64,000 bases of DNA. Origin: Roseibium alexandrii DFL-11 (lineage in GTDB: Bacteria; Pseudomonadota; Alphaproteobacteria; Rhizobiales; Stappiaceae). The stretch's first letter is position 1. Every line of letters starts with the position of its first letter. The notes beneath the pieces were generated by a model. The model was not told the origin of the DNA, did no database searches, and saw nothing but the letters and a program-made list of their open reading frames with translations. The translations under genes and the position numbers were made by a program. Of this stretch, positions 4,467-17,236 are shown piece by piece. The stretch lies in contig NZ_CM011002.1 in the NCBI RefSeq assembly GCF_000158095.2, positions 2,433,228 through 2,497,227 on the forward strand. The letters are read 5' to 3'.

Positions 4467-4721
4467 ATGTGTCTCGCAATCCCTGCCAAGATCACGGAAC
4501 TTGACGGCGACGACATGGCCGTCGTTGCGCTTGAAGGCATCAAGAAACGGATTTCGACCGCGCTGGTCGAGGATCTCGCCGTTGGCGACTACGTTCTGGT
4601 TCATGTCGGCTATGCGCTTCACAAGGTCAGCCCGGACGAAGCGGCCCGCACGCTTCAGCTGATGGCCGAGGCCGGTGTGCTTCAGGACGAACTCGACGAG
4701 ATGACAGGAGCGGACCAGTGA
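4467..4721 (+). CDS. hypC: Hydrogenase maturation chaperone HypC
   Basis: HypC is an 84-residue chaperone that, with HypD, carries the Fe(CN)2CO moiety to the apo-hydrogenase. It begins MCLAIPAKI; Cys2 is the essential ligand of the family. Length and sequence are typical of HypC/HupF. An SD-like GGAG lies a few bases before the ATG. Its TGA overlaps the GTG start of hypD (GTGA), a sign of tight translational coupling between the two partners. Confidence 0.93.
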   Translation: MCLAIPAKITELDGDDMAVVALEGIKKRISTALVEDLAVGDYVLVHVGYALHKVSPDEAARTLQLMAEAGVLQDELDEMTGADQ

Positions 4722-5872
4722 AATATGTATCCGAATTCCGCGACAAGGATCTCGCGAAATCCGTTTCCGCTGCCATCCGGCGCGAGGCTGATCCGGGCCG
4801 GACCTACAATTTCATGGAGTTTTGCGGCGGTCACACCCATGCTATCTTCCGTTATGGCGTTCAGGACCTGATGCCGGACAACGTGGCTTATGTGCATGGA
4901 CCTGGCTGCCCGGTTTGTGTGCTGCCCGTGCGCCGGCTGGATGACGCGGTGGAGATTGCCGAGCGGCGCAATGTAATCCTGTGCACCTATGGCGACATGA
5001 TGCGCGTGCCGGGCACGAAACAGCGCAGCCTGATCCGCGCCAAGGCCGACGGGGCAGACATTCGCATGGTCTATTCCACTCTGGATGCCCTGAAGATTGC
5101 CCGCGACAATCCGGACCGTGAAGTCGTCTTCTTTGCCATCGGCTTTGAAACCACGACCCCGCCGACCGCCGTTGCAATCAAACAGGCCAAAAAGGAAGAC
5201 CTTGGTAATTTCTCTGTCTTCTGCAATCACGTTCTGACGCCCCCCGCAATTGCCCATATCCTGCAGTCACCAGATGTTCAGGATCTTGTCACCGTGGAGA
5301 TTGACGGGTTCCTCGGCCCCTCCCATGTCAGCTCGGTGATTGGATCAAAGCCCTATGAGCCTGCCGCGCAGATTTTCGGCAAACCGGTGGTGATCGCGGG
5401 CTTTGAACCCCTGGACGTTATGCAATCGACCCTGATGCTGATCCGCCAGATCAATGAGGGCCGCTTCGAGGTTGAAAACGAATACACGCGCGTCGTGACC
5501 CGTGAGGGCAATCTCAAGGCTCAGGCACTGGTCGAAGAGGTATTTGACATCCGCGACGCGTTCGAATGGCGCGGGCTCGGCACAGTTGCCAAGAGCGCCT
5601 TGAAGATCCGGGAGGCCTTTACCGCATTCGATGCCGAACAGCGGTTCGAGATAACACCCAAACAGTCGCGCGAAGTGAAGTCCTGTGAGTGTCCCGCCAT
5701 CTTGCGCGGCGTGAAAAAACCGACCGACTGCAAGCTCTTCGGCACGGTCTGCACGCCTGACACGCCGATGGGATCCTGCATGGTGTCGTCGGAAGGTGCC
5801 TGCGCGGCCTATTGGACCTATGGACGCTTCCGCACCAAGGCGGCCCGGCCGCAAAAAGAGGCCGCGGCATGA
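4718..5872 (+). CDS. hypD: Hydrogenase formation protein HypD
   Basis: HypD is the [4Fe-4S] scaffold on which the iron cyanide/CO ligand set is assembled together with HypC and HypE. The 384-residue protein shows the conserved FCGGHTHAI and GPGCPVCVLP motifs in the N-terminal third. A C-terminal cysteine cluster (KSCECPAI, then GTVC and GSCMV) supplies the cluster ligands. It starts at a GTG that overlaps the hypC stop. Its own stop overlaps the hypE ATG (ATGA). Confidence 0.95.
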   Translation: MKYVSEFRDKDLAKSVSAAIRREADPGRTYNFMEFCGGHTHAIFRYGVQDLMPDNVAYVHGPGCPVCVLPVRRLDDAVEIAERRNVILCTYGDMMRVPGTKQRSLIRAKADGADIRMVYSTLDALKIARDNPDREVVFFAIGFETTTPPTAVAIKQAKKEDLGNFSVFCNHVLTPPAIAHILQSPDVQDLVTVEIDGFLGPSHVSSVIGSKPYEPAAQIFGKPVVIAGFEPLDVMQSTLMLIRQINEGRFEVENEYTRVVTREGNLKAQALVEEVFDIRDAFEWRGLGTVAKSALKIREAFTAFDAEQRFEITPKQSREVKSCECPAILRGVKKPTDCKLFGTVCTPDTPMGSCMVSSEGACAAYWTYGRFRTKAARPQKEAAA

Positions 5873-6906
5873 ATATTCAGGATCCGACATTGTCCGCGCG
5901 CACGGGCAGCATCGACATGGCCCATGGCGGCGGCGGCCGCGCAACGGCAGAGCTGATCGCGGATCTCTTTCAACACCATCTGACCAATCCGATCCTAGAT
6001 CAGGGAAATGACGCGGCGCTGCTGCCACCGGTAGCCGGGCGGCTTGTCATGTCGACGGACGGTCATGTCATCTCGCCGATCTTCTTCCCCGGTGGCGACA
6101 TCGGGTCTCTCGCCGTTCACGGCACCTTGAATGACGTCGCCATGGCGGGTGCCGAACCGCTTTATCTCACCGTCGGTTTCATTCTCGAAGAAGGCTTTCC
6201 GCTCGCCGATCTGGAAAAGATCGTCATTTCGATGGCGCGGGCCGCAGAGGCGGCAGGCGTTCCGATCGTTACCGGAGATACCAAGGTCGTCGAAAAGGGC
6301 AAGGGCGACGGTGTCTTCATCACAACGACCGGCCTGGGGGTTGTGCCGGACGGCGTTCATGTCTCGGTCGAGCGCGCGGAGCCCGGCCAGGCGATCCTTC
6401 TGTCCGGCTCCTTAGGTGATCACGGTGTTGCCATCCTTTCCAAACGGGAGAACCTTGAATTCGAAACGGAAATCCGCTCCGACAGCGCCGCGCTGCACAC
6501 ACTTGTCGCCGGTATGATTTCAGCAGCACCCGGGATCGCTGTTCTGCGCGATCCGACGCGCGGCGGTCTGGCGGCAACCTTGAACGAGATCGCCCGCACC
6601 GCCAAGGTCGGCATCCATCTGGAAGAAAACGCAATTCCGATAAAGGCGGATGTGAAAGCCGCGTGCGAGCTGCTCGGGCTTGATCCGCTTTATGTCGCCA
6701 ATGAGGGCAAGATGGTGTGTTTGTGCGAGCCCGGCGATGCTGATGCGGTGCTGGCGGCCATGCGGGCCCATCCGCTTGGCCGGGATGCGGCCTTGATCGG
6801 GACAGTCACCGAGGACGATGCCCATCTGGTGGAGATGGAAACGGAAATCGGCGGCGTGCGTGTGGTCGATTGGCTTGCGGGCGAACAGCTGCCCCGGATC
6901 TGCTGA
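5869..6906 (+). CDS. hypE: Hydrogenase expression/formation protein HypE
   Basis: HypE dehydrates the carbamoylated C-terminal cysteine to a thiocyanate, using ATP, to make the cyanide ligands. The 345-residue PurM-like protein has MAHGGGGRATAEL near the N-terminus, DPTRGGLAATLNEI in the middle and ends in PRIC with the essential terminal cysteine. The frame is open to 5812, but the ATG at 5869 overlaps the hypD stop and gives the family N-terminus. The ligand cysteine is intact, so the protein should be functional. Confidence 0.95.
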   Translation: MNIQDPTLSARTGSIDMAHGGGGRATAELIADLFQHHLTNPILDQGNDAALLPPVAGRLVMSTDGHVISPIFFPGGDIGSLAVHGTLNDVAMAGAEPLYLTVGFILEEGFPLADLEKIVISMARAAEAAGVPIVTGDTKVVEKGKGDGVFITTTGLGVVPDGVHVSVERAEPGQAILLSGSLGDHGVAILSKRENLEFETEIRSDSAALHTLVAGMISAAPGIAVLRDPTRGGLAATLNEIARTAKVGIHLEENAIPIKADVKAACELLGLDPLYVANEGKMVCLCEPGDADAVLAAMRAHPLGRDAALIGTVTEDDAHLVEMETEIGGVRVVDWLAGEQLPRIC

Positions 6907-6917
6907 CAGGCCGGCTG

Positions 6918-9239
6918 ATGACCGTGACCGCAACACATGTCCGGATCAAAGGCCTTGTGCAGGGCGTTGGCTTCCGACCCTTCGTCTGGCATCTGGCACG
7001 GGAAGAAGGCCTTACCGGTCATGTTCTCAATGATGCGGACGGTGTGCTCGCGGAAATCTTCGGTGCAGCTGACCGGCAACAACGGTTTTTGGAGCGGCTC
7101 CGATGCGAAGCGCCGCCGCTTTCTGAAATTGTGAGCGTCGAAACAGCAGTTCTTGCTGGGCCCTTTAGTCCGCCGCCGCAAGACTTTCAAATTGTCGAGA
7201 GCGTTGAAGGTCCTGCCACCACCGGCATTGTCCCGGATGCGGCAACCTGCCCTGCCTGCGTTGCCGACATCTTTGATCCGGCCAACCGGCGCCACGGCTA
7301 TGCCTTTACCAATTGCACCCATTGCGGGCCGCGTCTCTCCATCGTGACATCCATTCCCTATGACCGGGCCAGCACCTCGATGGCCGCGTTCAAAATGTGC
7401 CCGGAGTGCCAGAGCGAATATGACGATCCGGCGGACCGGCGGTTCCATGCGCAGCCCAATGCCTGTCCGGCCTGCGGCCCGCAGCTCTGGGCCGAAGCCG
7501 AAGGAACGCGGATTGAAACGGCCGACCCGATCCGCTGGGCAGCATCCCGGCTGGCGGCAGGTGAGATCATTGCCCTGAAGGGCCTTGGCGGTTTTCATCT
7601 GGCCGTCGATGCCACGAATGATGCGGCCGTTGCCCGGCTTCGGGAGAAGAAAAAACGGCCGCACAAGCCGCTTGCGGTGATGGTGCGCGATTTGGAGCAG
7701 GCGCGGACGATCTGCCATGTCAGCGATAGGGAAGCGGCGCTGATGGAAGACCGCGCGGCCCCCATTGTCCTACTGAGGTTGCGGGCAAAGTCCGCAGAGA
7801 AGCCAGCCCTTTCCGGACACCTTGCGCCGGGCCTTGATCAATGCGGCCTCATGCTGCCGGCAACGCCGCTGCATCATCTTCTGATTGCAGCGGTTCCGGG
7901 CCCGCTTGTCATGACTTCCGGCAATCGCTCGGAAGATCCGCAAGTCATCACCAACGAGGATGCGCGACGCAATCTTGGGCAGATTGCCGACGGATTCCTC
8001 ATGCATGACCGGGAGATCGTCAACCGGCTGGATGACAGTGTGATGCGCGCAGATCGAGGCGGGCCGGTGATCCTGCGCCGGGCAAGAGGCCATGCCCCTG
8101 CGCCACTGGCGCTGAACAACGGTTTTCAAACATGCCCTTCGGTGCTTGCCATGGGCGGTGAACTCAAATCAACGTTCTGCCAGCTGAGGCAAGCAAGCGC
8201 CGTCGTGTCCCAGCACATGGGCGATCTGGAGAGCAGACCGGTTCTGGAGGACTATGAAAAGACCCTCACCCTCTACCGGCAGCTTTACGATTTTGAACCG
8301 GACCGCATCGCAGTCGATCTCCATCCCGATTTTGTCTCGACACAAGCCGGACGGCGGCTGGCGGCGGACCTGCACATTCCGCTGATCGAGGTCCAGCATC
8401 ATCATGCGCATCTTGCCGCTTGCATGGCTGAACACGGCCTGCCGCCGGACAGCGATCCGGTGCTTGGCGTTGTTCTGGACGGTTCGGGTCTCGGCAGTGA
8501 CGGTACGATCTGGGGCGGAGAATTTCTTTTTGGCGGTTACAAGGGCTTTGAGCGGGCCGGCCATTTTCTCCCCATTGCTCTGCCCGGCGGGGCAGCTGCG
8601 GCTCGCGAGCCCTGGCGCAATCTGGTGGCACATCTGCGGGCGGCGTTTGGTACAGACTGGTCTCCTTCGAGCGCCAGTTCCTCCCTCAGTCCTATTTTTA
8701 CCGGCAAGACCGTGAGCGTGATCGAGCACTTGATCGACAGCGGCCTCAACACGCCAATGGCCTCCTCTGCAGGACGGCTGTTTGATGCCGTTGCCGCGGC
8801 CCTTGGGATTTGCGCCACGCGCCAATCCTATGAAGGCCAGACAGGCGTGTTGCTGGAAGCTCTCGCCCGACCCTATCTTTCGCAAGCGACCGCCTACCCG
8901 GTCGACATTTCGAGCGGAACGCCGGGGATGTTGTCCTGGGAGGTGATGTGGGAGGCTTTGTTGGGCGACCTCAAACGTGGAACGGCACCGGGTCTGATTT
9001 CCGCCCGGTTTCATTTGGGGCTGATCAAGGCAATCAGCGAGATGGCAACTCACATCGCAGGGGATCGGAATATCAGGACAATCGCGCTCTCGGGCGGCGT
9101 CCTGCAAAACGCGATCCTTGCCGGCGGGCTGTACGAACAGCTGAGCGCGCAAGGGTTCGACGTTCTGGTTCCCGGAAAACTGCCCGCCAACGATGGCGGA
9201 TTGTCGCTTGGTCAAGCAGCGATCGCAGCGGTGACATGA
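6918..9239 (+). CDS. hypF: Carbamoyltransferase HypF
   Basis: HypF makes carbamoyl-AMP from carbamoyl phosphate and transfers the carbamoyl group to HypE. The 773-residue protein has the expected order: an acylphosphatase domain with GLVQGVGFRPFV near residue 12, two zinc-finger blocks built from CPACVADIFDP, CTHCGP, CPEC and CPACGP, a YrdC-like domain with the K-x-R-rich EKKKRPHKPLAVMV stretch, and a Kae1-like domain with HHHAHLAACMAEHG. The ATG at 6918 gives the standard start, with hypE ending 12 bases upstream. Unlike in many genomes, hypF is last in the operon. Confidence 0.95.
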   Translation: MTVTATHVRIKGLVQGVGFRPFVWHLAREEGLTGHVLNDADGVLAEIFGAADRQQRFLERLRCEAPPLSEIVSVETAVLAGPFSPPPQDFQIVESVEGPATTGIVPDAATCPACVADIFDPANRRHGYAFTNCTHCGPRLSIVTSIPYDRASTSMAAFKMCPECQSEYDDPADRRFHAQPNACPACGPQLWAEAEGTRIETADPIRWAASRLAAGEIIALKGLGGFHLAVDATNDAAVARLREKKKRPHKPLAVMVRDLEQARTICHVSDREAALMEDRAAPIVLLRLRAKSAEKPALSGHLAPGLDQCGLMLPATPLHHLLIAAVPGPLVMTSGNRSEDPQVITNEDARRNLGQIADGFLMHDREIVNRLDDSVMRADRGGPVILRRARGHAPAPLALNNGFQTCPSVLAMGGELKSTFCQLRQASAVVSQHMGDLESRPVLEDYEKTLTLYRQLYDFEPDRIAVDLHPDFVSTQAGRRLAADLHIPLIEVQHHHAHLAACMAEHGLPPDSDPVLGVVLDGSGLGSDGTIWGGEFLFGGYKGFERAGHFLPIALPGGAAAAREPWRNLVAHLRAAFGTDWSPSSASSSLSPIFTGKTVSVIEHLIDSGLNTPMASSAGRLFDAVAAALGICATRQSYEGQTGVLLEALARPYLSQATAYPVDISSGTPGMLSWEVMWEALLGDLKRGTAPGLISARFHLGLIKAISEMATHIAGDRNIRTIALSGGVLQNAILAGGLYEQLSAQGFDVLVPGKLPANDGGLSLGQAAIAAVT

Positions 9240-10472: not shown

Positions 10473-10548
10473 TGGTGCCCAGAGCCGGAATCGAACCAGC
10501 GACACGCGGATTTTCAATCCGCTGCTCTACCAACTGAGCTATCTGGGC
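10473..10548 (-). tRNA. tRNA-Phe (GAA)
   Basis: Read on the minus strand the 76 bases fold as a complete tRNA: acceptor GCCCAGA pairing with TCTGGGC, D-arm TAGCTCAGTTGGTAGAGCA, anticodon stem GCGGA/TCCGC around a loop with GAA, T-arm GGTTCGATTCC and an encoded CCA end. The GAA anticodon reads Phe codons. Confidence 0.97.
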
Positions 10549-10849: not shown

Positions 10850-13800
10850 TCAGTTCATCTCGCCAGCAACGATGCCGCTTGCCGACCAGCTTCCATCTAC
10901 CGCATTGAAGTTGCCGATAACGCCCTCGTAGTTGGATGACGGGCCGCTGACGATAGAGGTGTTGATGGAGCCCGATCCAACACTGCCGGCCAGATTTCCG
11001 GAAAACTGGTTTCCGATATCAACGGCGCGTTCGGTGAGATCTGCTCCAAACGTACGGCCATCGAAATTGGCAATATTGGCAGATCCGGTGCGGCGACCGA
11101 AATCGACCGTCATCCGGAAGTCGCCGGCTGCAAGATACTGCGCCCCATTGTTCACAACGCTGCCGGCAGCATGTCCGACGTAGCTTGCACTGCCACTGGT
11201 TGGCAGATCGGCGGCATTGGTCACGTCGCCAGCAACCCAGGTCCCGAGATGAAACGCATCTTTCCGGCCATTGGCACCGTCCAGAACACCACCCGTGTCA
11301 TCATAGGAAAGTTTTGTGCCCCAATAGCCCCATTCCAGAAAGGCACAGGTGCACTCGGTGGTTCCCGCCATGATCGCATCATCTGCGGTCCCGATCAGAG
11401 TGTTCGGCACGAAATAGGTGTTGGCATCCTGGGACGGATCCTGCTGCAAGGTGTGTCCCGCATCACTGGCAAGGGCCGACGCGACACTGCTGGCTGCCTG
11501 TACCACACCTTCAAGTCCCTCATTCCGAGGCTCGGCCAGACCTGTGTAAGGTCCTGTGCCCCCTCCGCCACCGGTTGGGTATAGGTAAGGATCAGGATTC
11601 GGATCTGGTCCTGGACCGGGAACGACAGGCTCCACCGTATCGACCGTTAGGTAGGTCTCTGAATGATCCGACGCATCGCGGGCAGCATAAAGGTCGTTGC
11701 CAATAAAGGTGGAGCGATCCGTGCCGGAACCATCGCTGTTGGAACCAAACCGCACCGAGTAAGCCGCAACATCCGGATCCAGGTCCTGACTGTCACGGAC
11801 GGTCAAACTGCCGCCGAGCGAATACTCAGCGCCATTGAACGTTACGGAAAGGTCAGCAGCGCTCTCGCTGGCAAATACAACCGGACCAACGCCTTGTCCC
11901 GGGAAGTTGACGCTGCTCTCCAAAACGCCCGCGGCATAGCCGGACAGTGTCCGGTCACTGCGGGTCAAGATGCTGGCATCGACGGAGCCACTGAGCCGCG
12001 CAACATGAAGGCTCGACGAGACCGTCGCCGGTGCTGGAAAGATGTCAGGCTGACTGACATAGCTGTCGTCATAGGCATCATCGAGAGCGCCGCCCGACAG
12101 GGAATTACCGAAAACAAAGCTTTGAGCATTGCTGCCAAAGAAATGTCCATCATCAGGCCCGGCGATTGTTCCGACCGGACCGCTGTAAAGCCCCGCGCTC
12201 TGGCTGCTTGCAATCCGGTGGCCTCCGCGCCGGTCTGTTTCCATCGAGAGGATGCCACTGGCCTCATCCGCTGCAACCTCTCCAACCGCCAGAGATATAA
12301 ACGATTTCTGGTTCTCACCCGTCCCGTCAATGTGGAACGACCCGGCCAGATAATGAGCGCTCTCCAGGGTTGCAGGATCGCTTTCGATCATCAGAAGCCC
12401 GGTCGAACTGACATCCTGGAGGAAGCTCTCACCAAGCTCCGCGGCCGCCAATGGATTGACGAACAGCGCTTCGGTGATGAGAGGCGTGAAGGTTCGGCCG
12501 TTCCCCGCCGTGCCAAGCGAAAAGGCCAGGGTCGGGTCGGTCGCCAGATCATAGATCCGAATGGACGGTGTTCCGCTTGCATCTCCGAAACTTGAAAAAT
12601 CAGTACCCACTCCACGAACGCCGACCACCATATTTTCAATGTCGAATTTGGTGGTTCCACCGGGCGTGACATTTGGCAGATGCGCGAAGGCCGCAAAGTC
12701 TTCGTGATAGTGTTGCACGCCCCACGCGTACGACGTGACGTTTCCTTCAGTTTCTGGGTCGACTGTCGGCGCTACCGGAATGAAGTCAGCCTCACCGAGC
12801 TGTGCAACAACATCCTGATCTGTATAGGTCTGGGCATAGTAGTATTGCCCGTCGCCCTCGAAGGCGAACTGATAGATCTTGTTGCCCTCGACCTCCGCTT
12901 TGTAAAGGGCTGTCGCAGTGCCGGAGGTGATTTCTCCTACCGTGAAAGTGACCGGCATATCGGTGCCGCTGCTGCCACCAATCAGTCCTTGCGCTCCTGG
13001 CGCCAAGACGGTGCGAGTTGTGTCCCAGGATGGTGTGAATTCAACGCCGGCAGTCAGGATCCGCACAACGTCCGTCGTTTCGACAGTCTCCCCACCGGTG
13101 TCTCCCGTTCCGCCGGTCGTGTCTCCGCCGTCCCCACCACCTTCGCCCCCGTTAGGGTCATTCCCACCGATAATTTCATCGGCAAGCTGATTGATTGTGC
13201 GTTGCTGGGTGTCCTTTTGGACTTGCAACAGGTCGGGTTCGGTCTGTCCGGGTGATCTCGGCTGCACACTTCTTGGTTTGGGCACGGGCGCAGTACGTAT
13301 GTGACCAAGACGTGAATTGATATTCGGAACACCGGAGCGTGCGATCTGCCGTGCAGTTGGCGGCGTGCGTGTCCCGCCGGACTGACCAGATCCTGCAGTC
13401 AGGCCGCTTTGCGCCGAAGCCAGATCGGAAGGCGTTGTCCGCCGCACACCACCAGCCTGACCGCCGGTTCCAACCTGCAGGGAATAGCCTGCAGAATAAA
13501 TGCGCCGGTTCGTTCCATCTGCGCCTGTGAAGGTCAGCTCGTCTCCAAACAATAGGGAAAAAACCGGATTTCCACCGTTCAAGTTGAGATTGGCCATGCC
13601 GCCACGAATGCCAATGGTGCCAACCGGTGTCTTGACCGAAACCCCGCCTTTTTGCTTGCTGACCTTTCCGCCGACAAATCGGACTACGCCCTTGCCGAAG
13701 GACGCGACTAGCTTTCCTGTTCCTGCATTCGGATCGTAAACAAATTCGTCAATCACGAGATCGGAGTTTGCTCCGACCGTGAAGGTGGACCCGTCATTCA

Positions 13801-14047
13801 ACAGCACTTGAACGAGGCCTGAGCCGGACGTTTCGATCCGTTCGTTGTAGACCACGTTGTCGCCAAGCAGCTTCACTTGACGGACGGCACCGGGCGGCGT
13901 TCCAAATGCATTCGTGTTGACGGCAGCGGCCGTCCCGACAGTCGTTGCTTGCACTGGCCCATTTAGCGCCAAGGTAACGATCGCGGTCGCACACGCTACT
14001 GCCCAGCGCTTTGGAGCGGCAGGAGTGAATTTAGATGATGGCATCAT
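10850..14047 (-). CDS. Secreted FecR-domain protein with TbpB-like C-terminal barrel
   Basis: The 1065-residue protein has a signal peptide (hydrophobic core around residues 15-33 ending VQA) and a FecR-type domain at about 50-165, seen as VRQVKLLGDNVVYNE, LLNDGSTFTVG and TPVGTIGIRGG. A Gly/Asp/Thr-rich linker lies near 290-330, followed by a long beta-rich region. The last 150 residues (SGSASYVGHAAGS, FRMTVDFGRRTGSANIANFDG, NQFSGNLAG, FNAVDGSWSASG) look like the eight-stranded barrel of transferrin-binding protein B and of hemophores exported by Slam proteins. A GGAGG lies 7 bases before the first ATG. It starts 15 bases after a Slam-like gene, so I infer it is the exported cargo. Its ligand and surface role are unknown. 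Confidence 0.75.
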   Translation of the reverse strand: MMPSSKFTPAAPKRWAVACATAIVTLALNGPVQATTVGTAAAVNTNAFGTPPGAVRQVKLLGDNVVYNERIETSGSGLVQVLLNDGSTFTVGANSDLVIDEFVYDPNAGTGKLVASFGKGVVRFVGGKVSKQKGGVSVKTPVGTIGIRGGMANLNLNGGNPVFSLLFGDELTFTGADGTNRRIYSAGYSLQVGTGGQAGGVRRTTPSDLASAQSGLTAGSGQSGGTRTPPTARQIARSGVPNINSRLGHIRTAPVPKPRSVQPRSPGQTEPDLLQVQKDTQQRTINQLADEIIGGNDPNGGEGGGDGGDTTGGTGDTGGETVETTDVVRILTAGVEFTPSWDTTRTVLAPGAQGLIGGSSGTDMPVTFTVGEITSGTATALYKAEVEGNKIYQFAFEGDGQYYYAQTYTDQDVVAQLGEADFIPVAPTVDPETEGNVTSYAWGVQHYHEDFAAFAHLPNVTPGGTTKFDIENMVVGVRGVGTDFSSFGDASGTPSIRIYDLATDPTLAFSLGTAGNGRTFTPLITEALFVNPLAAAELGESFLQDVSSTGLLMIESDPATLESAHYLAGSFHIDGTGENQKSFISLAVGEVAADEASGILSMETDRRGGHRIASSQSAGLYSGPVGTIAGPDDGHFFGSNAQSFVFGNSLSGGALDDAYDDSYVSQPDIFPAPATVSSSLHVARLSGSVDASILTRSDRTLSGYAAGVLESSVNFPGQGVGPVVFASESAADLSVTFNGAEYSLGGSLTVRDSQDLDPDVAAYSVRFGSNSDGSGTDRSTFIGNDLYAARDASDHSETYLTVDTVEPVVPGPGPDPNPDPYLYPTGGGGGTGPYTGLAEPRNEGLEGVVQAASSVASALASDAGHTLQQDPSQDANTYFVPNTLIGTADDAIMAGTTECTCAFLEWGYWGTKLSYDDTGGVLDGANGRKDAFHLGTWVAGDVTNAADLPTSGSASYVGHAAGSVVNNGAQYLAAGDFRMTVDFGRRTGSANIANFDGRTFGADLTERAVDIGNQFSGNLAGSVGSGSINTSIVSGPSSNYEGVIGNFNAVDGSWSASGIVAGEMN

Positions 14048-14062
14048 GCAATTTCCTCCCGG

Positions 14063-15430
14063 TCAGAACGCTTTTCGCAGCGAAAACATTGCGGAAACGT
14101 TTGAGTAACTGCTGAGGTCATAGTTGGAGTTTTGCCTCCGGACCTCGCCGACGAGCCCCGCCGACACGTTGTATTTGAGCGGAACATTCAGTGCCGCGCG
14201 CAGCCATCCCTCATGGTCCCGTTGTTTGACGGCGGCATTCACCAGCGGGTCCGGTTCATCATAGGCGCGGTAGATGTATCCCGCCTCCAGATCAATCGAC
14301 CATAGATGCGGCAGTTGTTTGACCGGGGATGCGAACTGGTAGGTCGCCCCCACCCCGCCTCCGGCCTCCCAGCTTTGCTGTGACTTGATGCGGGTTTCCT
14401 CAAAATCCGCGAGCGCCAGGACCCGCATTTGCAAGCCCTTGGTCAATTGACGCGAGACCTTGGACGCAAACTGCACGAAATATCCGTTCCGGTCGGACAC
14501 CGTCGGGTACTCGGAGGTGTCGTTGAACCAGCGCTGGCGCCACTCCAGTTTCGCATTTATTTCCGTTTGAATGTCGGGCCGGGCGACCAGCCGGGTTCCA
14601 ACGCCCAGCGCGCCATTGTAGTTCGCGTGGTTCAGACGGATACCAGAAGCAACTCCGTAAATACCGAGTTGCACATCATCAAAGTTGAAGCGCGCCATGT
14701 TGAAGGAGGGACCAAGGGTAATTTCTGCAAGACCAGTGTCGAGCCGAACCTGATCAGCAAAACGCGCGGCATAAAACACCACGTCAGTTTCGATGAGATC
14801 CCCTTGGGTTCCAAGATCATAGGACCCGTAGGCGCGGCCAGCGACAAACGCATTGATATCAGCCTGGCCCGTCGCGGTGTCGTCCAGGATAAAGTCCCTG
14901 CCGTTCAAGGTGACGCGGCGCCCGCCGGGGGCGGCATTGGCATTGGACTGGTAGCGGGCACCAATTATGACATCCGCGCGAAACTGTGTTGGCTGCTGTT
15001 TCGACGCAATTGCGGAAAGATATGTTTCGACACGCTGCTGGACCTCTTCAGGCACATCAGGCGTTTCCAGCGTCGACTGAAAATAGTAGCGCGCCGTTTC
15101 AAACGATCCCAGACGGTAATAAAGAACACCCAGTTCCAGCTTCACGCGTGGCAGGTTCGGCGCAAAGATCAGCATGCGTTCAAAAGTTGAGATCGCAGCT
15201 TCATAGTCACCGACCATCACGGAGACCGTGGCATATTCGAAGGCGATATCGAGGTCGGCCGGCCGCTCAAGCATTTTTGCCAGAAGCGCGGTTTGCCGTG
15301 CCAGCAACGCATCTGCTGACACTTCCGGCTGGCCGCCAATGTCCGCTTCCTGAGCCTCAGCAACAGCAGAGGAAAACAGAAGACCGGCCATTATCACCAG
15401 ACAAAATATCGTATCAGACGTCAAACGCAT
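14063..15430 (-). CDS. Slam-like outer-membrane protein (TPR plus beta-barrel)
   Basis: The 455-residue protein has a signal peptide (residues 1-26, ending AEA), a TPR-like helical region at about 55-145 (AFEYATVSVMVGDYEAAISTF and LGVLYYRLGSFETARYYFQ type helices), and a C-terminal part of alternating beta strands that ends in phenylalanine, the usual signal for outer-membrane barrel insertion. This TPR-then-barrel plan is that of Slam (surface lipoprotein assembly modifier, DUF560), the translocon of type XI secretion. The adjacent downstream gene carries a TbpB-like domain, the known class of Slam client. A generic TPR porin is the alternative. Confidence 0.7.
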   Translation of the reverse strand: MRLTSDTIFCLVIMAGLLFSSAVAEAQEADIGGQPEVSADALLARQTALLAKMLERPADLDIAFEYATVSVMVGDYEAAISTFERMLIFAPNLPRVKLELGVLYYRLGSFETARYYFQSTLETPDVPEEVQQRVETYLSAIASKQQPTQFRADVIIGARYQSNANAAPGGRRVTLNGRDFILDDTATGQADINAFVAGRAYGSYDLGTQGDLIETDVVFYAARFADQVRLDTGLAEITLGPSFNMARFNFDDVQLGIYGVASGIRLNHANYNGALGVGTRLVARPDIQTEINAKLEWRQRWFNDTSEYPTVSDRNGYFVQFASKVSRQLTKGLQMRVLALADFEETRIKSQQSWEAGGGVGATYQFASPVKQLPHLWSIDLEAGYIYRAYDEPDPLVNAAVKQRDHEGWLRAALNVPLKYNVSAGLVGEVRRQNSNYDLSSYSNVSAMFSLRKAF

Positions 15431-15560: not shown

Positions 15561-15602
15561 CAACAACAAAAACGCCGGCCCTGAGATTCCCCAGAGCCGG
15601 CG
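15561..15602 (-). terminator. Rho-independent terminator of the 5'-nucleotidase gene
   Basis: On the minus strand CGCCGGC (15602-15596) pairs with GCCGGCG (15579-15573), and the stem can be extended inwards with one mismatch. A TTTTTGTTGTTG tract follows. It lies 27 bases after the stop of the 5'-nucleotidase and separates it from the Slam-like gene. Confidence 0.8.
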
Positions 15603-15628
15603 CGAAAAGTGCCTTAAAACGCCCGACC

Positions 15629-17236
15629 TTACTTCAATGTGATGCGGTCATCCGTGTAGGCCTTGTAGCTTTTCTTCTCTCCGAGATAGGCAGCTACAAC
15701 ATCCGCGAGATCGGGACCGAAATCGTATGCATTCATGCCGTTGGACTCGAAAATTGCATACCCATCACCGCCGCCACGCATGTAGTTGTTCGACACGATG
15801 CCATAGACCTTTTCCGGATCAATTGGCGCAAAGGCATCATTTTCAAGCACCATGACGTCTGAGATGCGCTGACCGGCCGGTTGCGATTTATCGATCGTGT
15901 ATTTAAGGCCTGCAACTTGAGCGAACCGGCCTGCACCTTCTTCAATCTGACTGGATCCATTTTCAAGAGCCGACACCACATCCGCCCCTTTGAGCTGGAA
16001 TGTGGCCAGCGTGTTCTGGAACGGCAGAACCGTCAAGACCTCGCCCATGGTGACTTCACCGGCGTCAATTGATGCGCGCAAACCGCCGCCATTCTGGATT
16101 GCGATCTGAACTCCCTGATCCTTTACGCGGTCCAGCATGGCTTCGGTCACAAGAACGCCCATTTCGCAGACCTCAGCCCGGCAGACGCTGCGCTCACCGC
16201 CGATCGCCGCGGTTGCTTCAGCCACGACTTCATTGCGGATTTCATCCAGCGGCTGCGCCAGCTCTTCGATGCGCGCAATAAACTCTGCATCGGGTTCCAC
16301 AGACGCATCAAGGAGGATCGGTTCCCCTTCAGCCTTGATCACGTTGCCCTCATCGTCCCAGGTCACAACAAAGTCGCCCAGGAATTTGCTGTAGGCATAG
16401 GCCTGAACGATTGGTACATCCTGACCGTCCTGGTTTTTGACCATCACCGGATAGGGACCAGAGGCTCTGTCCTGAGTGTTGGACAGCAATGTGTGCGAGT
16501 GCCCTCCGACAATGACGTCGATGCCTGGGACAGCTGCGGCGATTTTCGCGTCCATCGACAGGCCCTCATGGGTCAGCGCGATGATCTTGTTCACCCCGGC
16601 TGCTTCCAACTCTGCGACCTGGGCTTTCAGCGATTCAATTGAGTTCTGAAATTTAACGCCGGCACCTGGCGATGAGGTTTCTACCGTATCTTCGGCGAGG
16701 CTCGAGACGAAACCGATTTTCTCACCACCGCGTTCCAGCACCAGAGTGCCTGGAATGCGGTCCTTGAGCAGTGGTTCGTTTTCAAGGTCAAGATTACCGG
16801 AAATGACCGGGAACTCGACCTTGTCCAGGAAAGCAGCCAGTGCCGACGGGCCATCATCAAATTCATGGTTGCCGACCGCCATGACATCATAGCCGATACC
16901 GTTCATGAAATCGGCCGCTGCTGCCCCTTTGTAGGTCGTATAAAAGAGCGAGCCTTGGAACTGATCGCCAGCGTCGACAACGACGAAGTTCTTGCCTTCG
17001 TCGGACAACGCGTCGCGGCGCTCATCCACCATGGACTTGATTCGGGCGACACCCCCAAAGCACTTTCCCTCAGATTCGGATTCAGCATCGCAGGTGGAAT
17101 CGTACTTGTTGATCGATTCAATGCGCGAATGAACATCGTTGGTGTGAAGGATGGTCAGAGAATAATCGGCGAATGCCGCAGTCGACAACGCGGTCGTAAG
17201 CGACAGCACTGCGGCGCTCAGAAGTTGGTTTTTCAT
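15629..17236 (-). CDS. Periplasmic 5'-nucleotidase / UshA-like metallophosphatase
   Basis: The 535-residue protein has a cleavable signal peptide (residues 1-23, ending AFA) and the two-domain plan of bacterial 5'-nucleotidases. The N-terminal metallophosphoesterase domain shows HTNDVHSR, DAGDQFQGS, VGNHEFDDG, LTHEG and GGHSHT. The C-terminal substrate domain shows NGGGLRASI and VSNNYMRGGGDGY. It should release phosphate and nucleoside from nucleotides in the periplasm. A PhoB-box-like sequence 160 bases upstream fits induction by phosphate starvation. It is monocistronic, with its own terminator. UDP-sugar hydrolase activity is possible but cannot be decided. Confidence 0.88.
   Translation of the reverse strand: MKNQLLSAAVLSLTTALSTAAFADYSLTILHTNDVHSRIESINKYDSTCDAESESEGKCFGGVARIKSMVDERRDALSDEGKNFVVVDAGDQFQGSLFYTTYKGAAAADFMNGIGYDVMAVGNHEFDDGPSALAAFLDKVEFPVISGNLDLENEPLLKDRIPGTLVLERGGEKIGFVSSLAEDTVETSSPGAGVKFQNSIESLKAQVAELEAAGVNKIIALTHEGLSMDAKIAAAVPGIDVIVGGHSHTLLSNTQDRASGPYPVMVKNQDGQDVPIVQAYAYSKFLGDFVVTWDDEGNVIKAEGEPILLDASVEPDAEFIARIEELAQPLDEIRNEVVAEATAAIGGERSVCRAEVCEMGVLVTEAMLDRVKDQGVQIAIQNGGGLRASIDAGEVTMGEVLTVLPFQNTLATFQLKGADVVSALENGSSQIEEGAGRFAQVAGLKYTIDKSQPAGQRISDVMVLENDAFAPIDPEKVYGIVSNNYMRGGGDGYAIFESNGMNAYDFGPDLADVVAAYLGEKKSYKAYTDDRITLK

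Follow-up and report, generated by a model that had tools for sequence, protein, structure and literature searches.

A Slam-related barrel protein and its FecR/barrel partner in Roseibium alexandrii as the probable outer-membrane half of a CHASE2 cyclase sensor

The outer-membrane proteins of the type XI secretion system (T11SS), including Slam1/Slam2, NilB, HrpB, and HsmA (DUF560/PF04575), join an N-terminal tetratricopeptide repeat (TPR) domain, located in the periplasm, to a C-terminal barrel that runs to an aromatic end, and their cargo (TbpB, fHbp, HphA/hemophilin, and Pls-like proteins) combines a Sec signal, a variable middle, and a C-terminal barrel of the fHbp/TbpB type. CHASE2 domains, in turn, form the extracytoplasmic part of inner-membrane sensors. 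A gene pair of Roseibium alexandrii DFL-11, contained in a stretch of 64,000 nucleotides (hereafter the window, to which all coordinates refer), has features of both: it codes for a 455-amino-acid TPR-barrel protein related to the Slams and for a 1065-amino-acid partner with an N-terminal FecR domain and a cargo-like C-terminal barrel. We put at roughly 60% the probability that these two proteins form the outer-membrane half of a trans-envelope sensor feeding a CHASE2 cyclase.

The studied case that was found for the route of an outside signal across two membranes to a CHASE2 cyclase is NsrA-CyaK of Sinorhizobium meliloti. On pSymB, nsrA lies directly before cyaK with a one-base overlap; by Pfam, NsrA carries a FecR domain at residues 66-160 and TPRs at about residues 378-587, and CyaK a CHASE2 and a cyclase domain. 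According to the available parts of the published work, residues 600-1200 of NsrA are its beta-barrel portion (PMC7529298; the Pfam match there is weak), the published model exposes only the barrel loops at the surface (PMC7529298), and plant-signal perception requires both NsrA and CyaK (PMC7529298, PMC13001267). FecR domains also occur in the Burkholderia BiofilmReg operon, which sets a LysM-FecR protein beside a CHASE2 sensor and for which the available part of the paper names no outer-membrane translocon gene (PMC5192318); in E. coli FecR, where, in the excerpted source, the FecR domain contacts the periplasmic part of FecA (PMC5498481); and in the Lysobacter orf4990-orf4994 cluster of sigma factor, FecR, TonB-dependent transporter, TbpB, and Slam genes (PMC11233812, as far as available).

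The R. alexandrii pair and its relatives are like NsrA-CyaK in bringing FecR, TPRs, and an outer-membrane barrel together with a CHASE2 cyclase gene, but two chains are employed where NsrA is a single one, and the cyclase gene, adjacent in Sinorhizobium, is unlinked in the window species. BiofilmReg shares the FecR protein beside a CHASE2 sensor, although the sensor is a kinase and not a cyclase, whereas Lysobacter shares the clustering of FecR-family, TbpB-like, and Slam genes but keeps FecR separate from the TbpB-like lipoprotein, in a cluster for iron uptake that includes a sigma factor and has no CHASE2 cyclase named in the accessible text. The likeness to the T11SS outer-membrane proteins lies in the domain plan, in a barrel profile alignment of 282 columns, and in the position beside a gene for a TbpB/fHbp-barrel protein; the differences are that the window protein falls below PF04575, that its partner has a FecR domain, and that in many relatives the gene for a CHASE2 cyclase lies alongside. 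The partner, although built like T11SS cargo from a probable Sec signal, a variable middle, and a terminal barrel, departs from it through its conserved N-terminal FecR domain, its length, a C-x(1,2)-C motif, and the general lack of a lipobox. Two background statements of the original prediction need correction in this respect: FecR is not confined to sigma-factor signalling but also pairs with CHASE2 sensors (the excerpted PMC5192318; NsrA-CyaK; 33 of 80 relatives described below), and the view that Slam clients are lipoproteins or short hemophores is outdated, since a 2025 survey, seen in part, lists longer architectures such as Pls (PMC12282271).

Both open reading frames were located where that prediction had placed them, with 15 bases from the stop of 14063-15430 to the ATG of 10850-14047, and the gap contains the ribosome-binding-like sequence GGGAGGA. 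The features of the pair are as follows.

14063..15430, minus strand: Slam-related outer-membrane protein, 455 amino acids; a TPR domain after a Sec-type start, then a C-terminal barrel with F as its last residue
15062..15244, minus strand: TPR region, residues ~63-123 (Pfam TPR_9/TPR_19)
14066..14980, minus strand: Slam-like barrel region, residues 151-455 (hhalign to PF04575 proteins)
10850..14047, minus strand: FecR/barrel partner protein, 1065 amino acids (Pfam and NCBIfam matches, family profile)
13943..14047, minus strand: Sec-type signal region, residues 1-35, without a conserved lipobox Cys (inspection)
13544..13840, minus strand: FecR domain, residues 70-168 (PF04773, 7.4e-8, above cut-off)
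11378..13060, minus strand: proposed ectodomain in the middle of the protein, residues 330-890, variable in sequence and lying behind a linker of low conservation
11321..11353, minus strand: pre-barrel motif C-x(1,2)-C-x-[FY]-x-x-[WF]-G, residues 899-909 (alignment A3)
10853..11260, minus strand: C-terminal fHbp/TbpB-like barrel domain, residues 930-1065 (FHBP_C and family profile)

The Slam plan of TPRs plus barrel that had been claimed for the 455-amino-acid protein holds. Downstream of a Sec-type start, recognized by inspection, the TPRs are matched by TPR_19 (5.9e-6, above cut-off) and TPR_9 (7.4e-7, below cut-off), but the direct profile check of 14063-15430 against Slam/DUF560 was negative, as PF04575 (SlipAM/DUF560) gave no match at E<=1. 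The whole window genome contains no PF04575 match, and the control genomes contain none either, though the family is matched in 22 of the 150 genomes of a phylum sample. The kinship to Slams is therefore derived from relatives and from profile comparison. At least 389 homologues of the barrel protein were obtained from 8000 scored candidates, with 120 of them listed and 16 of these omitted from the alignment (A1); of the 105 family sequences aligned, the threshold E<=0.1 is passed by 37 for PF04575 (best 4.9e-7) and by 29 for PF24575 TPR_Slam. The Slam set for profile comparison was drawn from the PF04575 proteins of the 22 positive genomes, where 27 loci were found. Two of these were fragments and in one the frame was interrupted by a stop; with these three omitted and L096 and L101 excluded as ambiguous, 22 entered the final hhalign. 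The barrel half aligns to the ten strongest of them with 99.0% probability over 282 columns (score 137; reversed control 0.1%) and to the twelve weaker ones with 98.9% over 283 columns (score 131; reversed 1.2%), and the alignment extends to the common C-terminal end. A search of the PDB with the family profile returned TPR matches only, to known and designed repeat proteins.

A TPR porin family in place of the Slams had been named as the finding that would speak against this assignment, and the porin-like family BBP2_2 was rejected as the family of the 455-amino-acid protein, because its relation is weaker and shorter (91.6% over 169 columns, score 58; reversed 6.3%). Since BBP2_2 itself matches the Slams at 94.9%, the three kinds of barrel are akin by profile, and by the same comparison the window protein is clearly closer to the Slams, whose match is far longer and stronger: it is best classed, on its profile, as a divergent Slam relative and not as a curated PF04575 member. 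NsrA scores 2e-5 with the profile of the Slam-related family and shows no match to the partner's barrel type; it was rejected as a Slam for its weak score, the Slam profile scored against it and against the plasmid pAMI5 containing some wrong reading frames.

The residual relation to BBP2_2 bears on an explanation in which nothing is translocated: the TPR-barrel protein would be a ligand receptor or a porin and the FecR protein a periplasmic transducer whose barrel only docks, in other words an NsrA split in two. That NsrA holds FecR, TPRs, and barrel in one chain (PMC7529298 in its available part for the barrel), that its published model, in the same excerpts, leaves only barrel loops at the surface (PMC7529298), and that partners consisting of FecR alone exist among the relatives all agree with such an arrangement, which we nonetheless consider distinctly unlikely, given that the 455-amino-acid protein is clearly nearer to the Slams than to BBP2_2 or NsrA, that the C-terminus of the partner is of the T11SS-cargo type, and that its large variable middle region fits an ectodomain.

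The partner protein carries the predicted N-terminal FecR domain, directly after the signal region, and the same architecture bears on the possibility that it regulates an extracytoplasmic function (ECF) sigma factor in the manner of FecA/FecR/FecI. Apart from the domain itself, this reading could draw on the Lysobacter cluster of sigma factor, separate FecR-family, TbpB, and Slam genes (PMC11233812, in part); against it, the partner has its FecR domain behind a Sec-type start and in one chain with a barrel, and the flanking genes are, by Pfam, a 5'-nucleotidase and a homocysteine S-methyltransferase-like protein, the wider window not having been searched for sigma factors. The anti-sigma reading was rejected on the Sec-type start directly before FecR and on the lack of a sigma gene among these two Pfam-checked neighbours, and regulation of an ECF sigma factor is accordingly rated as very improbable.

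The partner also has no convincing lipobox, in line with the original prediction: the Cys of 'AVAC' is kept in the relative P0121, which is 98% identical, and replaced by Gly in P0122, L005, and L006, and a lipobox-like tetrapeptide occurs in only 5 of 65 related partner genes. The closest partner homologue, 98% identical, is labelled Roseibium alexandrii. Conservation along the protein is highest in the FecR part (0.68-0.83 per column in residues 46-180), second in the barrel, and lowest in the middle, where it mostly lies at 0.3-0.5 and falls to 0.05 in the poorly occupied residues 811-855; Pfam at E<=1 gives no match in residues 330-890. Conserved FecR and barrel ends with a variable middle fit the sensor model. 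The pre-barrel motif is present in 50 of 50 sequences of alignment A3, the window included, and its cysteines are possibly a disulfide or a metal site. The alignments behind these comparisons leave out 29 of 117 homologues of the FecR protein (A2) and 13 of 62 barrel loci (A3).

At the C-terminus, FHBP_C (PF08794, cut-off 28.1 bits) reaches 26.5 bits in the whole protein, 30.0 in the excised domain, and 30.5 in the genome scan, TbpB_B_D matches below its cut-off, and the NCBIfam model 'Slam-dependent surface lipoprotein' gives 6.7e-8 and 33 bits (cut-off 80). With the family profile of the partner barrel, fHbp chains align along most of the domain (best 7.7e-5), and at E<=0.1 FHBP_C is found in 35 and TbpB_B_D in 22 of the 50 sequences of A3. 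Direct hhalign comparison with cargos from Slam loci, whose alignments hold 2-5 sequences each, gave 16% for three HphA-type cargos (reversed 14%), 5% for two TbpB-type cargos (reversed 0.1%), and 5% for the five combined (reversed 0.2%). By its FHBP_C and fHbp matches, the C-terminal domain resembles the fHbp/TbpB-type barrel of T11SS cargo, in agreement with the TbpB-like barrel originally proposed. Two Aquibium loci, L039 and L075, contain very large partners (1799- and 2041-amino-acid frames, upstream overlap included) with two barrel-domain matches each.

The pairing was followed through relatives of the barrel protein, the 80 best among the 308 found in a scan of genome contigs. FecR and a C-terminal barrel lie in one frame directly downstream and on the same strand in 62 of these loci, and in none of the 62 unbroken partners do more than 15 residues separate the end of the barrel from the stop. 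With L007 and L083, where the partner is split, and L011, where the partner is the second gene, a cargo-type barrel stands near the barrel gene in 65 of 80, a frequency that makes the pairing more than chance. The split partners of L007 and L083, interrupted by a stop or a frame change, come from metagenome-assembled contigs, and contig ends cut L043, L056, L061, and L079. The FecR domain is even more regular, as a FecR gene is near the barrel gene in 79 of 80 loci (directly downstream in 72, upstream in 7), the exception being cut at a contig end. The partner is FecR-only in L044, L067, and L078, and has no detectable barrel in these and in L182 and L184-L187. Eight loci, mostly of Stappia, lack a downstream partner; in seven of them a gene for FecR alone lies 1.9-2.2 kb upstream, and L031, the eighth, is cut. 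The A3-type barrel was found in none of the 11 genomes of the eight lone-barrel loci and of L044, L067, and L078, genome completeness not being stated, and was found in the window genome (G000) and in those of L016 and L082, all three of which have rows in A3. The constant element on the partner side is FecR rather than the cargo-type barrel (79 versus 65 of 80, with FecR-only partners existing), which favours signalling over the simple release of a secreted protein. In L052, L055, and L070, two or three consecutive FecR genes, with and without barrel, follow the Slam-related gene.

The same counts bear on a plain T11SS, in which the Slam-related protein translocates the whole 1065-amino-acid protein as a released or surface-held binder, with FecR as an extra fold and the cyclase linkage as shared regulation. 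The Slam homology and the strictly terminal barrel of the 62 unbroken partners are what such a system would display, a soluble SPI cargo is secreted by HrpB (PMC8406197, available in part), and barrel protein and cargo barrel co-occur across 121 genomes of the order: 12 have both, 3 the barrel protein only at 1e-30 (7 at 1e-20), 1 a weak cargo barrel only, and the rest neither, with p values of 4.9e-13 at 1e-30 and 5e-11 at 1e-20 that are overstated, as all p values from this sample, by the relatedness of the genomes and by overlap with the 80 loci (G195 and G267 hold L035 and L028). However, FecR is more constant than the barrel and occurs without it, a fully exported FecR domain could not meet a periplasmic CHASE2 domain, and the linkage to CHASE2 cyclases described below is left unexplained. 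Translocation of the whole protein is for these reasons judged unlikely. The original T11SS candidacy stands in so far as a Slam relative has a partner with a cargo-like barrel, and is incomplete in that the constancy of FecR and the cyclase linkage point to signalling.

The third part of the proposed sensor is a CHASE2 adenylate/guanylate cyclase, whose gene (profile E<1e-60) abuts the barrel gene and its partner in 33 of 80 loci. All 33 belong to the 48 loci outside a group whose flanking genes are conserved (L005-L034, with L013 and L031 cut, together with L044 and L083) and which we label the Stappiaceae-type block; the 48 retain the pair and contain none of these flanking genes, presumably hisD, Maf, YacG, and others. 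The linked cyclase lies downstream in 29 loci and upstream in 4, in several orientations; five of the 48 loci are cut just after the partner, and L067, among the 33, has a FecR-only partner. CHASE2 and Guanylate_cyc are both recognized by Pfam in 18 of 18 members of the cyclase alignment (A4), 15 of which come from the linked loci. In the order sample, the cyclase family is present in 58 of 121 genomes, namely in 18 of the 19 that have the barrel protein at E<=1e-20 versus 40 of the 102 that do not (p 5e-6), and in 15 of 16 versus 40 of 102 after removal of three genomes whose own cyclase is in A4 (p 5e-5). Within the 18 genomes, the cyclase lies within about 1.3 kb of the barrel gene in 7 and 7 kb away in one, and is unlinked in the rest.

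FecR and CHASE2-cyclase genes also stand beside the Slam gene at PF04575 loci of distant genomes. In 6 of the 22 PF04575-positive genomes, a cyclase-profile match occurs within about 1.5 kb of such a locus (five at 1.6e-87 or better, one partial at 1e-28), two of which supplied the cyclase profile itself and were checked by Pfam, versus 0 of 20 BBP2_2 loci within the same distance. In succession, G009 has a protein whose FecR and TbpB_B_D matches both exceed their cut-offs, a PF04575 protein, and a cyclase-profile match, and on pAMI5 of Paracoccus aminophilus, a TPR barrel, a FecR-(PTG)n-barrel protein, and a cyclase (annotated as TPR, FecR, and cyclase) lie in a row. The three parts recur from Alphaproteobacteria to more remote members of the phylum whose PF04575 proteins score above cut-off. 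At L183:6806-11143, a second FecR gene (480-amino-acid frame) directly precedes a different CHASE2 gene (932-amino-acid frame), as a separate FecR-CHASE2 pair.

Domain content, pairing, and, in relatives, linkage to the cyclase are established at the level of sequence, and from them we infer surface exposure, a FecR-CHASE2 contact, a ligand, and the direction of signalling. In the sensor model, the Slam-related protein would be seated in the outer membrane and the partner would cross the inner membrane by Sec, after which its fHbp/TbpB-like barrel would engage the Slam-related protein and lead the C-terminal part to or through it. The variable middle region would then be displayed at, or exported to, the surface, where it could sample the outside, while the N-terminal FecR domain would be left in the periplasm. 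FecR would pass ligand binding on to CHASE2, the periplasmic domain of a nucleotide cyclase in the inner membrane, and the cyclase would make cAMP or cGMP. That a T11SS translocon has in this way come to serve a second-messenger pathway as its outer-membrane end, with a surface ectodomain and a periplasmic FecR switching the cyclase, is a tentative proposal, given somewhat less than even odds. The existence of partners without barrel suggests that the core consists of FecR, outer-membrane protein, and cyclase, and that the barrel-tipped ectodomain is an elaboration.

The best candidate for the cyclase in R. alexandrii is an unlinked 778-amino-acid frame on contig C1 of G000 at about 4.53 Mb (CHASE2 7.8e-55, Guanylate_cyc 1.3e-24), adjoining what we take to be an rpoH-like gene. 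It is 43-46% identical over about 700 amino acids to the four best linked cyclases and 37-44% to the other A4 members, and may serve this barrel/partner pair.

Several observations weigh against the sensor model. The window contains no CHASE2 match, the four found by the genome scan all lying elsewhere, and no linked cyclase is present in loci L005-L034, some of which are cut. The cyclase family is common in genomes devoid of the barrel protein, as the 40 of 102 attest. Eight genomes, mostly of Stappia, have the barrel protein and no A3-type barrel anywhere (0/8). Since partners in which no barrel is detectable exist, surface export may lie outside the core. Lastly, FecR near a Slam is already published in an ordinary sigma-factor role in Lysobacter, as far as the available part of the paper goes (PMC11233812), and because that cluster has both, their proximity alone is no proof of a sensor.

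In the literature searched, which left subscription papers mostly outside, the Lysobacter iron cluster was the one report in which FecR and Slam appear together (PMC11233812, itself seen in part), and no FecR-barrel fusion and no combination of CHASE2 with T11SS were found; PMC12282271 uses the term T11SS 163 times and FecR and CHASE2 never. That 2025 survey, in the portion available, analysed clusters 1 and 3 and has few cargo candidates for the marine cluster (PMC12282271). The locus bears on T11SS function beyond the animal-associated cluster 1 and on the question of how CHASE2 cyclases are reached from outside, and it predicts a three-part chain of Slam-related protein, FecR/barrel protein, and cyclase in culturable marine and soil bacteria.

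The DNA around the pair contains the following further features.

15572..15603, minus strand: terminator-like hairpin with a stem of 14 pairs and a T tail, separating the barrel/partner pair from the 5'-nucleotidase gene
15629-17236: 5'-nucleotidase gene, upstream of the pair (Metallophos and 5_nucleotid_C)
10473-10548: tRNA-Phe, directly downstream of the partner gene

Because the hairpin separates the 5'-nucleotidase gene from the pair, it suggests that barrel and partner genes are a separate bicistron; terminator-like sites number 6 in the region, with 5.9 expected in shuffled sequence, and this one has the longest stem. The 5'-nucleotidase gene, considered as a third component, was judged to reflect synteny since it is confined to the Stappiaceae-type block, where 28 of the 30 loci L005-L034 have it upstream (L026 does not, and L013 is cut), as against 0 of the 48 others. 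The tRNA-Phe region may be a phage attachment hotspot, because what appears to be an integrase-like gene lies just beyond the tRNA in Stappia loci L016, L021, and L023. Genes that we take, by protein type, to be hypD-, hypE-, and hypF-like hydrogenase maturation genes occupy 4718-9239 on the plus strand, and the genome of the window species (5.46 Mb in 3 contigs) has a single barrel-protein match at E<=0.001.

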